64,000 nucleotides of DNA from Aminomonas paucivorans DSM 12260 (GTDB lineage Bacteria; Synergistota; Synergistia; Synergistales; Synergistaceae): assembly GCF_000165795.1 (NCBI RefSeq), contig NZ_CM001022.1, positions 868,001 to 932,000 of the forward strand, given 5' to 3'. This document shows positions 26,028 to 59,172 of the stretch, in pieces. Position 1 is the stretch's first letter; the number at the start of each line of letters is the position of its first letter. The translations under genes were made by a program, and so were the position numbers. Under the pieces are notes generated by a model. That model did not search any database. It had not been told where the DNA came from and saw nothing but the letters and a program-made list of their open reading frames with translations.

Positions 26028-26084
26028 CATAGGGGGCAGCATCGGGACGAGAAACCCGCCCCTGAAGGGCAAAGGAGTCGAGCC

Positions 26085-27992
26085 ATGGAAGCGTTTGTGC
26101 TGGATTGGAGCTACGAGACCTGGGTGGAGCGCCTGGCGGAGCTGGGACAGCCCCGATTTCGGGCGGACCAGATCTGCAAGTGGATCTATCGCAAGAGGGT
26201 CTTTCGTTTCGAGGACATGACCGATCTGAGCCTGGAGCTTCGGGAGAAGCTCCAGGCCCTTTGGTCCTGTGGGATCCCCGAGGTGGCGGCGGAGCAGGTC
26301 TCCCGGAAGGACGGGACCCGAAAGCTCCTGTGGCGTCTGGGGGACGGGCAGTCCGTGGAATCGGTGCTGCTGGATCAGGAAGGGCGGCGCACCGCCTGCA
26401 TCTCCACCCAGGTGGGGTGTCCCCTGGGCTGTGCCTTCTGCGCCACCGGCCAGTCCGGCTTCGTGCGGAACCTCTCTCCCGGGGAGATCGTGGGGCAGTT
26501 CCTGGGCATGGAGGCTCGCTACGGGGAGCTTCAGGGGCTGGTCACCATGGGCATGGGAGAGCCCCTGCTCAACGCCGATGCGGTGTTCCTGGCCCTGGGT
26601 GCCCTCAAGCACCCCAAGATGCGGGGACTGGGGGTTCGGCACATCACCCTCTCCACCTGCGGGGTGGTTCCGGGGATCCGGGCGCTTGCCGCCTCGGGGC
26701 TGGGAGTGCGCCTGGCGGTCTCCCTCCATGCGGCCAACGACGCCCTGCGGGACCGGCTGGTCCCCCTGAACGCCCAGTACCCCCTGGCGGAACTGCGGGA
26801 GGCCCTGGTGGACTACCAGGAGGTCACCAGGGACCGGATCAGCATCGAGTATGCCCTCTTCGAGGGGGTGAACGACGACCCCTCCCAGGCCCGCCAGCTG
26901 GGGGAGTACCTTCGGGGACTGTCGGTGTTCGTGAACCTCATTCCCGGGAACCGCTCCCTGGAGGACGCCTACCGACGTCCCCCCCGCTACCGGGTGGAAC
27001 AGTTCCAGGGCATCCTGGAACAGCAGGGCTTCGAGACGGCGGTTCGGGTGGAACGGGGCTCGGACATCGACGCCGCCTGCGGCCAGCTTCGCCAGCGGGT
27101 GGAGGGAGCGGAGGGAGGAAGGCCCCTCGGGGTCCTGCCCCCGGAACCGGAAAGGCTTCCCCGTCCCGCCGCCCCGGCACCGAGGGACAAGGGGGTCTCT
27201 CCTTCCCGGAAACCCCGTCCCCAAGGGGGGGGAAACCCCTCCCGGGAGAACCGCCCCCACCGTCCGGGAGAACCGGATCGTCGTCCCTATGCCGGGCCGC
27301 CCCGGTCGGGTCGCCCCGCCCCACAGGGGAAGGGGGATCGTCCGGGAGAGCCGGATCGTCGCCCCTATGCCGGACCGCCCCGGTCGGGTCGTCCTGCCCC
27401 GCAAGGGAAGGGGGATCGCCCGGGAGAGTCGGAGGGTCGGCCTCGCACCCCCGCAGGGGGAGAGAGGGGAAGGGATTTCCGTCCCCCTCGGGAGGACGGG
27501 CGCCCGGACCGGGAGAACCGTCCCCACCGTCCGGGAGAACCGGATCGTCACCCCTATGCCGGGCCGTCCCGGTCGGAGCGTCCCGCCCAGGCAAGGGAGG
27601 GGACCCATCCGGGGCGAACCGGGGCAAGTCGGGAGGGTTTTCCAGCGGAAGATCGTCCCCGCGGTCCCCGGGGAGACGATCGGCGTCCCGGACGTTCCCC
27701 GTCCCCCACGGGGCGTCCGGATCGGGAAGGCCCCCGGGATCGCCGGGAGGGGGCCGGTCGACCCTTCGGACCCCGAAGCCAGGGGGGCGAAGGACCTGCC
27801 CCGGGACAGGACGCTCCGCGTCGTCGGGACGATGCGGGCCGGGGAAGCTCCGGGTCGCAGGGAGGTAAGCCTCGTCCCTCCGGTCCGGGGAAGGGACGTC
27901 CCTCCGGAAGCGGGGACAAGGGGCGGCATCCCGCGGGAGGGGGGCGTCCCGCACACCCTCAGGCTCGCCGGAAAACCGGGAAGAAGGACTGA
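26085..27992 (+). CDS. rlmN: 23S rRNA/tRNA adenine-C2 methyltransferase RlmN with a 295-residue basic repeat tail
   Basis: The first 340 residues are a complete RlmN radical SAM methyltransferase: C112-x3-C116-x2-C119 for the 4Fe-4S cluster, MGMGEPLLN, and C332 in AACGQL as the methyl-carrying cysteine. It methylates A2503 of 23S rRNA and A37 of some tRNAs. Residues 341-635 are an added low-complexity tail rich in Arg, Pro, Gly and Asp, with near-perfect repeats of GEPDRRPYAGPPRSGRP, ending in KTGKKD. Usual RlmN length is 340-385, so the tail nearly doubles the protein. It stays in frame with no stop, so it appears to be translated, likely as a disordered RNA-binding segment. Confidence 0.93.
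   Translation: MEAFVLDWSYETWVERLAELGQPRFRADQICKWIYRKRVFRFEDMTDLSLELREKLQALWSCGIPEVAAEQVSRKDGTRKLLWRLGDGQSVESVLLDQEGRRTACISTQVGCPLGCAFCATGQSGFVRNLSPGEIVGQFLGMEARYGELQGLVTMGMGEPLLNADAVFLALGALKHPKMRGLGVRHITLSTCGVVPGIRALAASGLGVRLAVSLHAANDALRDRLVPLNAQYPLAELREALVDYQEVTRDRISIEYALFEGVNDDPSQARQLGEYLRGLSVFVNLIPGNRSLEDAYRRPPRYRVEQFQGILEQQGFETAVRVERGSDIDAACGQLRQRVEGAEGGRPLGVLPPEPERLPRPAAPAPRDKGVSPSRKPRPQGGGNPSRENRPHRPGEPDRRPYAGPPRSGRPAPQGKGDRPGEPDRRPYAGPPRSGRPAPQGKGDRPGESEGRPRTPAGGERGRDFRPPREDGRPDRENRPHRPGEPDRHPYAGPSRSERPAQAREGTHPGRTGASREGFPAEDRPRGPRGDDRRPGRSPSPTGRPDREGPRDRREGAGRPFGPRSQGGEGPAPGQDAPRRRDDAGRGSSGSQGGKPRPSGPGKGRPSGSGDKGRHPAGGGRPAHPQARRKTGKKD
27267..27593 (+). repeat. 78-bp tandem repeat inside rlmN
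   Basis: Two adjacent 78-bp units (27267-27344 and 27345-27422) encode [19 protein letters not shown] plus QGKGDRP; a third partial copy lies at 27534-27593 (GEPDRHPYAGPSRSERPA). The units are a multiple of three, so copy-number change would keep the frame. Confidence 0.85.
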
Positions 27993-27999
27993 ACGATTC

Positions 28000-28040
28000 G
28001 GTCCCGATCTCCGCACGTCGGAGGTCGGGACCGGTCTTTT
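28000..28040 (+). terminator. Terminator of rlmN
   Basis: A 14-bp stem (GGTCCCGATCTCCG/CGGAGGTCGGGACC, one T-G pair) with a 5-base loop, followed by GGTCTTTT. Confidence 0.8.
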
Positions 28041-28122: not shown

Positions 28123-28198
28123 TGGCAGTCCCAAGGGGATTCGAACCCCTGTTTTCGGGCTGAGAACCCGACGTCCTAGGCCCCTGGACGATGGGACC
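28123..28198 (-). tRNA. tRNA-Glu (CTC)
   Basis: On the minus strand: acceptor GGTCCCA/TGGGACT, anticodon arm TCGGG-TTCTCAG-CCCGA giving CTC, T arm GGTTCGAATCC, encoded CCA at the 3' end. Confidence 0.95.
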
Positions 28199-28211
28199 GA
28201 AACTCGTTGTT

Positions 28212-28285
28212 TGGCTGGGGAACCTGGATTCGAACCAGGATTACCTGATCCAGAGTCAGGCGTGCTGCCGTTGCACCATTCCCCA
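28212..28285 (-). tRNA. tRNA-Gln (CTG)
   Basis: On the minus strand: acceptor TGGGGAA/TTCCCCA, anticodon arm CCTGA-CTCTGGA-TCAGG giving CTG, T arm GGTTCGAATCC, encoded CCA. It is 13 bases upstream of tRNA-Glu and probably co-transcribed. Confidence 0.95.
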
Positions 28286-56853: not shown

Positions 56854-59172
56854 ATGCCCCGCAAGAAGGTCTCCCCCCAGGAAGAAGCCCCCCTTCTCCT
56901 CTCCGAGAAGGAAGCCTCTCCCGCCGGAACCCCCAAGACCCCCCGGCGCAAGCCCTCCGCTTCGGCCCCCGAGGGAACCTCCCCCGAGGCGAAGCCCGCG
57001 GCCTCCCGTCCCCGGAAGGCTGCGGGGGAGAAGGCCGCCGCCCCGTCTCCCAAGGAAAAGAAGCCCAAGGCCCCGGGGCGCCGCGTGGCCGCTCCCGAGG
57101 CCGCCCCTAGACCGACCCGCCGCAAGGCCGGTCCCTCGTCCCCCCACGGGACGCTGGTGATCGTGGAGTCCCCCACCAAGGCCCGGACCCTGAGGAAGAT
57201 CCTCGGGGGAGAGTTCTCCGTGGAGGCCAGCGTGGGGCACGTGCGGGACCTGCCCAAGGGACGCCTGGGTCTGGATCTGGAACACGACTTCGAGCCGGAG
57301 TACATCCAGGTCCGAGGCAAGGCGCCGGTGATCCGGCGGCTCAAGGAACTGGCGGCGGGGAGCGAGCGGGTCCTCCTGGCTTCCGACCCGGATCGGGAGG
57401 GGGAGGCCATCGCCTGGCACCTGGCCACCCTGCTCCAGATGGACCCCACCAGCTCCTGCCGCATCCGGATGCACGAGATCACCGCTTCGGGCGTCCAGGG
57501 GGCGGTGGCGAACCCCGAACCCATCGACATGGACCGGGTCCAGGCCCAGCAGTCCCGACGCGTCCTGGACCGGTTGGTGGGCTACCAGCTCAGTCCCCTC
57601 CTGTGGAACAAGGTCCAGAGGGGCCTGTCGGCGGGGAGGGTGCAGTCCGTGGCCCTTCGTCTGGTGTGCGAGCGGGAGGACGAGATCGACGCCTTCCACC
57701 CGGAGGAGTACTGGCTTCTGGACGTGCAGGCCGACGCAGAGGGCGGTCGGGAGTACCTCCTGCGCCTGGAGCGCTGCAAGGGCAAGGTCTTCTCGGTCCC
57801 CTCCCGGGAGGAGGCGGAGCGGGTCGCCCAGGTCCTGCGGTCCCAGCCCCTGGTCGTGGCGGCCTTCAAGAGTCGGGAAAGCTCCCGGGGTGCCCTGCCC
57901 CCCTTCAAAACCAGCACCCTCCAGCAGGACGCCTCCCGCCGCCTGGGCTTCAACCCGAGGCGCACCATGCGGGTGGCCCAGTCCCTCTACGAAGGGGTCG
58001 ATCTTCCCGGCCGGGGTCCCGTGGGGCTCATCACCTACATGCGCACCGACAGCCTCCGGCTGGCCCCGGAGGCCCTGGAGGGAATCCGGCGCTACGTGGG
58101 GGATCGGTTCGGAGCGGACTACCTCCCCGACAAGCCGAACTTCTTCTCCGTGAAGGGGCGTTCCCAGGATGCCCACGAGGCCATCCGCCCCACCGACGTG
58201 ACCCTGGACCCCCAGGGGATCCGGGAGCACCTGAGCCCGGAACAGTTCCGGCTCTACGAACTCATCTGGAACCGGACCGTGGCCAGCCAGATGTCCCCGG
58301 CCCGAGTGGCCCGCACCGCCCTGGACGTGTCCTGCGGGGACTACGGCCTGCGGCAGTCGGGGGTGGAGGTGCTCTTCGACGGATGGGGCAAGCTGTGGCC
58401 CCTGGGGGTGCGCCCCACCCGGATCCCCCGGGCGGAGGAAGGGGAGGTCCTGGGCTTCCGGGATCTCAAGATGGAACAGCGCTACACCCAGCCTCCGGCC
58501 CGATACACCGAGGCGGGGCTGGTGAAGGTCCTGGAGGAGAAGGGCATTGGGCGTCCCTCCACCTACGCCACCATCGTGGAGACCTTGAGCGAACGGGGCT
58601 ACGTGGTGCGGGGGGAGGAGGACAAGAAGCTGGTCCCCACCCGTCTGGGCCGGGGAGTCAGCGGTTTCCTGGTGCGCCATTTCCCCGAGGTGGTCCAGGT
58701 GGGGTTCACCGCCCACATGGAAGAGGACCTGGACCGGGTGGAAGCGGGGGAGCTTCCCTGGCTCGCCCCCATCGAGGGCTTCTGGGCGCCCTTCCGCCAC
58801 ACCCTGGAGGACGTGGCCGCCACGGCGGAGCGGGTGAACATCCCCCCGGAAGAGGTGGGGGAGAACTGCCCTCAGTGCGGCAAGCCCCTGGTGGTCAAGC
58901 GGGGGCGCTACGGGGAGTTCATCGCCTGCAGCGGCTATCCGGAATGCCGTTTCACCAAGAAGCGGGTCACCTCCACCGGCATCTCCTGCCCCAAGTGCGG
59001 CACCGGGGAGCTGGTGCGCCGCAAAGCCACCAAGGGCAAGGCCAAGGGGCGGTTCTTCTACGGGTGCAACCGCTATCCCGAATGCGACTACCTCACCTGG
59101 TCGAAGCCGAAGAAAGCGGTGGAGCCCGAGGGGGAGGCCCTTCCGGTGACGGAGGAGCGGGACGATGGCTGA
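56854..59172 (+). CDS. topA: DNA topoisomerase I with basic N-terminal extension
   Basis: A 772-residue type IA topoisomerase relaxing negative supercoils. Residues 1-97 are a Lys/Pro/Ala/Arg-rich, histone-H1-like extension; the usual start TLVIVESPTKARTL follows. The catalytic tyrosine is Y395 in TYMRTDS. Two C-terminal zinc fingers are seen (CPQCGKPLVV...CSGYPEC; CPKCGTGEL...CNRYPEC). Most homologues carry basic tails at the C terminus, not the N terminus. ATG 56854 has no clear Shine-Dalgarno, but codon use of the extension is like the rest of the gene and no other start precedes the core. Confidence 0.95.
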   Translation: MPRKKVSPQEEAPLLLSEKEASPAGTPKTPRRKPSASAPEGTSPEAKPAASRPRKAAGEKAAAPSPKEKKPKAPGRRVAAPEAAPRPTRRKAGPSSPHGTLVIVESPTKARTLRKILGGEFSVEASVGHVRDLPKGRLGLDLEHDFEPEYIQVRGKAPVIRRLKELAAGSERVLLASDPDREGEAIAWHLATLLQMDPTSSCRIRMHEITASGVQGAVANPEPIDMDRVQAQQSRRVLDRLVGYQLSPLLWNKVQRGLSAGRVQSVALRLVCEREDEIDAFHPEEYWLLDVQADAEGGREYLLRLERCKGKVFSVPSREEAERVAQVLRSQPLVVAAFKSRESSRGALPPFKTSTLQQDASRRLGFNPRRTMRVAQSLYEGVDLPGRGPVGLITYMRTDSLRLAPEALEGIRRYVGDRFGADYLPDKPNFFSVKGRSQDAHEAIRPTDVTLDPQGIREHLSPEQFRLYELIWNRTVASQMSPARVARTALDVSCGDYGLRQSGVEVLFDGWGKLWPLGVRPTRIPRAEEGEVLGFRDLKMEQRYTQPPARYTEAGLVKVLEEKGIGRPSTYATIVETLSERGYVVRGEEDKKLVPTRLGRGVSGFLVRHFPEVVQVGFTAHMEEDLDRVEAGELPWLAPIEGFWAPFRHTLEDVAATAERVNIPPEEVGENCPQCGKPLVVKRGRYGEFIACSGYPECRFTKKRVTSTGISCPKCGTGELVRRKATKGKAKGRFFYGCNRYPECDYLTWSKPKKAVEPEGEALPVTEERDDG

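Follow-up and report, generated by a model that had tools for sequence, protein, structure and literature searches.

The window, by which we mean the whole 64,000-nucleotide stretch of Aminomonas paucivorans DNA that was analyzed, contains an rlmN gene of 635 codons and a stop codon. The gene is preceded by a ribosome-binding site graded as good, and its product consists of two parts, a catalytic core and a long basic C-terminal tail, which continues the core in frame. Downstream lie a terminator-like hairpin, two tRNA genes and the RNase J gene. The coordinates of these features are given in the table.

Table. Features of the rlmN region and of one distant gene of the window (positions are those of the window)
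Feature	Position	Strand	Remarks
rlmN, 635 aa	26085..27992	+	ATG start; open reading frame, sequence, TIGR00048 above cut-off
Ribosome-binding site AAAGGAG	26071-26077	+	sequence
RlmN catalytic core, residues 1-340	26085..27104	+	radical-SAM and catalytic cysteines present
C-terminal Arg/Pro/Gly-rich basic tail, residues 341-635, predicted disordered	27105..27989	+	net +30
78-bp (26-codon) tandem repeat	27261..27433	+	2.2 copies; Tandem Repeats Finder
Two full repeat copies	27261-27338 and 27339-27416	+	7 differences, all synonymous third positions
Third, diverged copy of the 78-bp unit	27528..27605	+	same frame, 62/78 identical
Strongly basic last 12 residues	27954..27989	+	net +4; end includes ARRKTGKKD
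Intrinsic terminator-like hairpin	27998..28034	+	16 pairs, then TCTTTT; starts 6 nt past the rlmN stop
tRNA-Glu(CTC) and tRNA-Gln(CTG) genes	28123-28285	-	convergent to rlmN, between rlmN and the RNase J gene
DNA topoisomerase I	56854-59172	+	Toprim at 100-209, Topoisom_bac, Zn ribbons

The two parts of the protein

By every test applied, residues 1-340 are assigned to RlmN, which is one of the most thoroughly studied radical-SAM RNA methyltransferases, and their predicted activity is m2A2503/m2A37 methylation. The TIGR00048 model gives 353.4 bits over residues 5-338, above its curated equivalog cut-off of 290 bits, and the core also matches Pfam PF21016 and PF04055. The best Foldseek hits of the core are E. 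coli RlmN structures, 3rfa_B being the top match (E 1.9e-37, TM 0.89 by target). The CxxxCxxC cluster (C112, C116 and C119) and the catalytic pair C105 and C332, assigned by the E. coli enzyme (C118 and C355), are invariant in 46 orthologues, and the active site thus appears to be intact, as judged by its cysteines. The protein was also considered as a possible Cfr, the C8 methyltransferase of A2503, and this assignment was rejected, as the Cfr models score 228 bits, far below their curated cut-off of 530-550 bits. The core therefore shares sequence, fold, cluster and catalytic cysteines with the known 23S rRNA A2503 and tRNA A37 C2-methyltransferases (TIGR00048; PDB 3rfa, 5hr6, 6fz6). The solved RlmN structures, however, extend at most a few dozen residues past the core, whereas the protein of the window continues for another 295 residues.

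These 295 residues consist mainly of Pro (60), Arg (58) and Gly (57), followed by Ala (21), Asp (19), Glu (19), Ser (18) and Lys (10); aromatic residues are limited to three Phe and three Tyr. The extent and composition of the tail agree with those reported in the preliminary description, although with 295 residues the tail falls a little short of the enzyme (340 residues) rather than equalling it in length. The tandem repeat and its third copy noted there were likewise recovered. The array has a period of 78 and 90% matches, and its score of 283 is the highest in the window, the runner-up having 68. A Pfam search and AlphaFold2 models revealed no folded domain in the tail. In the models of the window protein (46 sequences) and of an orthologue bearing the motifs described below (22 sequences), the core is ordered and the tail has pLDDT values mostly of 30-55 with no secondary structure. 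These predictions give good support to the view that the tail is intrinsically disordered.

Coding status of the tail

Whether the tail is translated can be judged directly from where its two full repeat copies differ. All seven differences fall on third codon positions and are synonymous, and the chance of all seven falling there is (1/3)^7 = 4.6e-4. As the repeat copies differ in this manner and tails recur in orthologues, the repeat frame represents more than chance. The tail frame is open in most orthologues, and the within-genus dN/dS of orthologues is 0.13-0.49 in the tails and 0.03-0.08 in the cores, with the reservation that dS is saturated in some pairs and that the comparison went as far as an f5 pair whose cores are identical. 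Of the terminator-like hairpins in the region, the one that follows the tail stop codon is the strongest. Taken from the sequence, the case that the tail is genuine and translated, with no frameshift or read-through, is well supported.

The idea that the tail is an artefact, produced by frameshifting, by loss of a stop codon or by a frame that stays open mechanically because the DNA is GC-rich, is hardly credible and is in substance already refuted. The codon usage of the tail is indeed unusual (CGT accounts for 38% of Arg codons vs 9% in the genes of the window), GC3 falls from 0.87 in the core to 0.66 in the tail, and the sense frame is not singled out by synonymous-codon scores. The synonymous-only repeat differences, the hairpin directly after the stop, the dN/dS below 1 and the tails open in 37 of 42 complete orthologues all speak against an artefact. 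In addition, the GC3 of the tail is lower than that of the core in 40 of 44 genes, and a low GC3 is therefore taken to characterize these tails in general and not to indicate non-coding sequence. The preliminary description had itself named a frameshift or sequencing error separating the tail as fatal to its proposal; none was found. Coding on the opposite strand was considered as well and rejected. The long minus-strand open frames (1343 and 615 aa) and the higher minus-frame codon score occur because GC is high at the first position of the sense codons, and the differences between the repeat copies fit the RlmN frame.

The synonymous codons of the tail are strongly shifted to CGT, GGA and GAT relative to the genes of the window. 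Selection on mRNA structure was considered as the source of this shift, and the two comparisons made point in opposite directions. The folding energy of the actual tail mRNA is -78.5 kcal/mol per 150 nt. A genome-like recoding is more structured (-86.7), and an mRNA in which the codons of the tail are permuted among themselves is less structured (-73.3). In a finished relative (locus L103, G022 contig 1, about 409876-412500), the rlmN core appears to be frameshifted near residue 300 and a basic tail is open in the shifted frame, which is due either to a sequencing error or to a real break.

Distribution and conservation of RlmN tails

RlmN tails were sampled in Synergistota and Chloroflexota. 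The preliminary description had proposed to look for the tail in orthologues, and it is present there: 37 of the 42 genomes of the family to which the window belongs (Synergistaceae, f1), from which complete genes were fetched, and 18 of its 19 sampled genera have an RlmN tail of at least 45 residues. The basic C-terminal tails range from 45 to 340 residues. Two other families of the same order also carry them: f5 in all three genomes first compared (a fourth f5 gene, L149, has a 210-residue tail) and f6 in two genomes out of three. No tail of at least 45 residues was found in the 13 genomes from families f2, f3, f4, f7, f8 and f9. Phylum-wide open-frame lengths agree with this, the RlmN of family f3 being almost always about 340-375 residues long; five longer f3 frames were fetched, of which four have 4-16 residues past the core and one is masked. 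Most other Synergistota lack such tails. None of the eight f10 genomes searched (G045, G054, G116, G117, G131, G134, G144 and G159) gave an RlmN match, and the family may therefore be devoid of RlmN.

When tail presence is mapped on a maximum-likelihood core tree, it changes at least eight times, so that gains or losses were repeated. Within Synergistaceae the tail appears to be long established. RlmN is present in 133 of 151 Chloroflexota genomes, and most of the open frames, upstream sequence included, span 350-440 residues. One of them (G309, locus L133) has a 265-residue Arg/Pro/Gly-rich tail much like that of the window, such a tail having arisen here independently; the other longer Chloroflexota frames that were fetched include one tail of 88 and one of 51 residues. 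Plasmid records contain only tail-less RlmN or Cfr relatives, none of which covers 80% of the query.

The sequence of the tail is not conserved beyond subclades, and tails align poorly between genera. Their repeats turn over rapidly: in genus g26 the repeat units differ by genome (RPRSDGPRRDD, RPRTDRPRREE, PRREGGPREGGRDDR) and are followed by a conserved FAFSRF end. In two g26 genomes that share the same core DNA along 1011 bases, the tails are set apart by the gain of two units and the loss of three. Repeat number, which the preliminary description had proposed to compare between strains, thus varies even between near-identical genes.

Charge is retained throughout. All 42 tails are net positive, and the cores are neutral. 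Over 20 genera, the content of Arg and Lys (mean 28%, range 23-37%) and the net charge per residue (mean +0.15) have no trend on genome GC3 (rho -0.07 and -0.12, respectively), while Arg itself rises with GC3 (rho +0.56) and Lys falls (rho -0.48). The basic composition is therefore no by-product of GC-rich DNA. The last 12 residues average +4.5 vs +1.5 elsewhere in the tail, and are the more basic in 41 of 42 tails, that of the window included. The sole tail without a basic end, L018 (the rlmN of G023), has about 60 extra non-basic residues at its C-terminus. Acidic residues are abundant too, the fraction of charged residues being 0.3-0.6 and Asp reaching 23% in f5 tails. Judged from these comparisons, selection appears to act on disorder and positive charge and not on a fixed sequence.

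Certain motifs are retained as well. The tails of one Synergistaceae subclade carry SGGF[VI]xxRG and RYRSGKMKEARPxYRG, both of which are absent from the tail of the window, and FxxF[YA] recurs near the C-terminus in several genera and in f5. In 151 Synergistota genomes, a profile of RYRSGKMKEARPxYRG detects RlmN frames in 15 genomes (E < 1e-12) and nothing better than E 0.02 outside RlmN.

In the genome of A. paucivorans, a search with the tail gave no match elsewhere even at E 10. A similar tail is absent from three pseudouridine synthases, one SpoU methylase and the main DEAD-box helicase; the last has a short basic end only, so that a similarity of the tail to this organism's own main DEAD-box helicase is not supported.

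Possible functions of the tail

It is moderately probable that the tail is a disordered electrostatic RNA tether, comparable to the basic extension of RhlB or to that of Mss116p. By binding RNA with only slight regard to sequence, the tail would concentrate the enzyme locally at 23S rRNA precursors and tRNAs, where the folded core would find and methylate A2503 or A37. Expansion and contraction of repeats would supply the length of the tail, and selection would maintain its charge, its disorder and its strongly basic end. Selection of charge without sequence is what an RNA tether predicts, and the conserved positive charge fits RNA binding. As in polybasic tethering extensions, an unstructured and net positive segment lies beside an RNA-acting core. 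The positively charged unstructured C-terminal extensions of RhlB, Mss116p and CYT-19 are reported to bind RNA non-specifically (PMC3814787). These proteins, like SrmB, are DEAD-box proteins, and their extensions are likewise C-terminal on enzymes that remodel or modify RNA. The tail of the window differs in being on a radical-SAM methyltransferase, in having repeats that turn over and in being far longer than the 56 residues of SrmB; the likeness is one of function, and no homology is claimed. In E. coli, RlmN activity stimulates 50S assembly, and the modifications of domain V are introduced at its early and intermediate stages (PMC11194073). Three observations count against the tether. The abundance of Asp and Glu weakens the notion of a simple polycation, a purely non-specific tether has no need of the invariant, RlmN-only motif of the subclade, and a few family members (g11, g16 and g22) lost or never had the tail, which is thus dispensable.

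The motifs suggest an alternative, in which the tail would chiefly be an arm for protein interaction. Short linear motifs, set in a disordered spacer, would dock RlmN on a partner in ribosome assembly or RNA processing, and charge would be secondary. This architecture is reminiscent of the C-terminal domain of RNase E, a long disordered C-terminal half serving as a scaffold, with short conserved motifs amid poorly conserved sequence (PMC11964227); the comparison is one of architecture. The conservation of the two main motifs across genera of the subclade, the confinement of RYRSGKMKEARPxYRG to RlmN and the recurrence of FxxF[YA] favor docking. However, the tails of the window, of genera g1, g3, g11, g12, g16, g18 and g19 and of family f6 have neither of the two main motifs and are still charged and disordered, so that docking motifs fail to explain the tails of many genera. 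In addition, so basic a motif could equally bind RNA. Docking as the main function is therefore regarded as unlikely, if still worth serious thought. A related and rather more speculative proposal, which we also consider unlikely, is that Synergistaceae RlmN is an assembly platform. The tail with its basic terminal anchor, together with RYRSGKMKEARPxYRG in the one subclade, would recruit a specific partner or rRNA site, so that RlmN, besides methylating, would contribute structurally to the assembly of the 50S subunit.

The rapid turnover of the repeats, as in the g26 pair, the poor alignment of tails between genera and the several losses would all be expected if the tail were a tolerated low-complexity expansion, in which repeats grow by slippage in the 3'-terminal part of a gene, extra length there doing no harm, subject only to weak selection against hydrophobic or aggregating sequence. 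Yet the net positive charge and basic end are held at low and high genome GC, the dN/dS is well below 1, the repeat copies differ only synonymously and the motifs are invariant in one subclade, which makes such an origin quite improbable.

Long, basic, Arg-rich disordered repeats with Asp and Glu can phase-separate with RNA. The tail is of this type, and the RNase J gene lies just downstream, so that RNA-dependent condensation holding RlmN in RNA-rich bodies has also to be considered. The tail resembles RGG/RPG-type low-complexity segments, to which it had been likened, in being Arg/Gly/Pro-rich, disordered and repetitive. It differs from them in having no RGG (four RG, five RPG and 24 RP were counted), in being RP-rich and in its many acidic residues, and an RGG-type identity is not borne out. 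Aromatic stickers are few, as there are only three Tyr and three Phe, and condensation is very doubtful as the explanation of the tail. Retention of RlmN on ribosome precursors or in condensates, as suggested in the preliminary description, is possible in a general sense.

Basic disordered tails on RNA enzymes are of an already known kind. What looks new is the presence of such a tail on RlmN, the conservation of its charge over a family, the turnover of its repeats and the RlmN-only motif. No RlmN with a C-terminal extension of such kind was found in the open-access papers searched, a library that is incomplete and in which the papers naming extensions were off-topic. A whole bacterial family carries an RlmN with a seemingly undescribed second part. 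The RlmN tails amount to a natural experiment, since net charge and basic end are kept through drift in sequence, length and repeats, and they illustrate cleanly how selection in bacteria can act on the composition of a disordered region. They permit a direct test of whether an electrostatic tail gives an RNA-modifying enzyme substrate capture or a role in assembly.

Two observations concern other genes of the window. Both kinds of tRNA encoded next to rlmN (Glu and Gln) are RlmN substrates in E. coli; the same tRNA pair adjoins a tail-less rlmN in L006 and is missing near most other rlmN genes. In DNA topoisomerase I, a Lys/Pro/Ala/Arg-rich N-terminal extension of about 95 residues precedes the Toprim domain.
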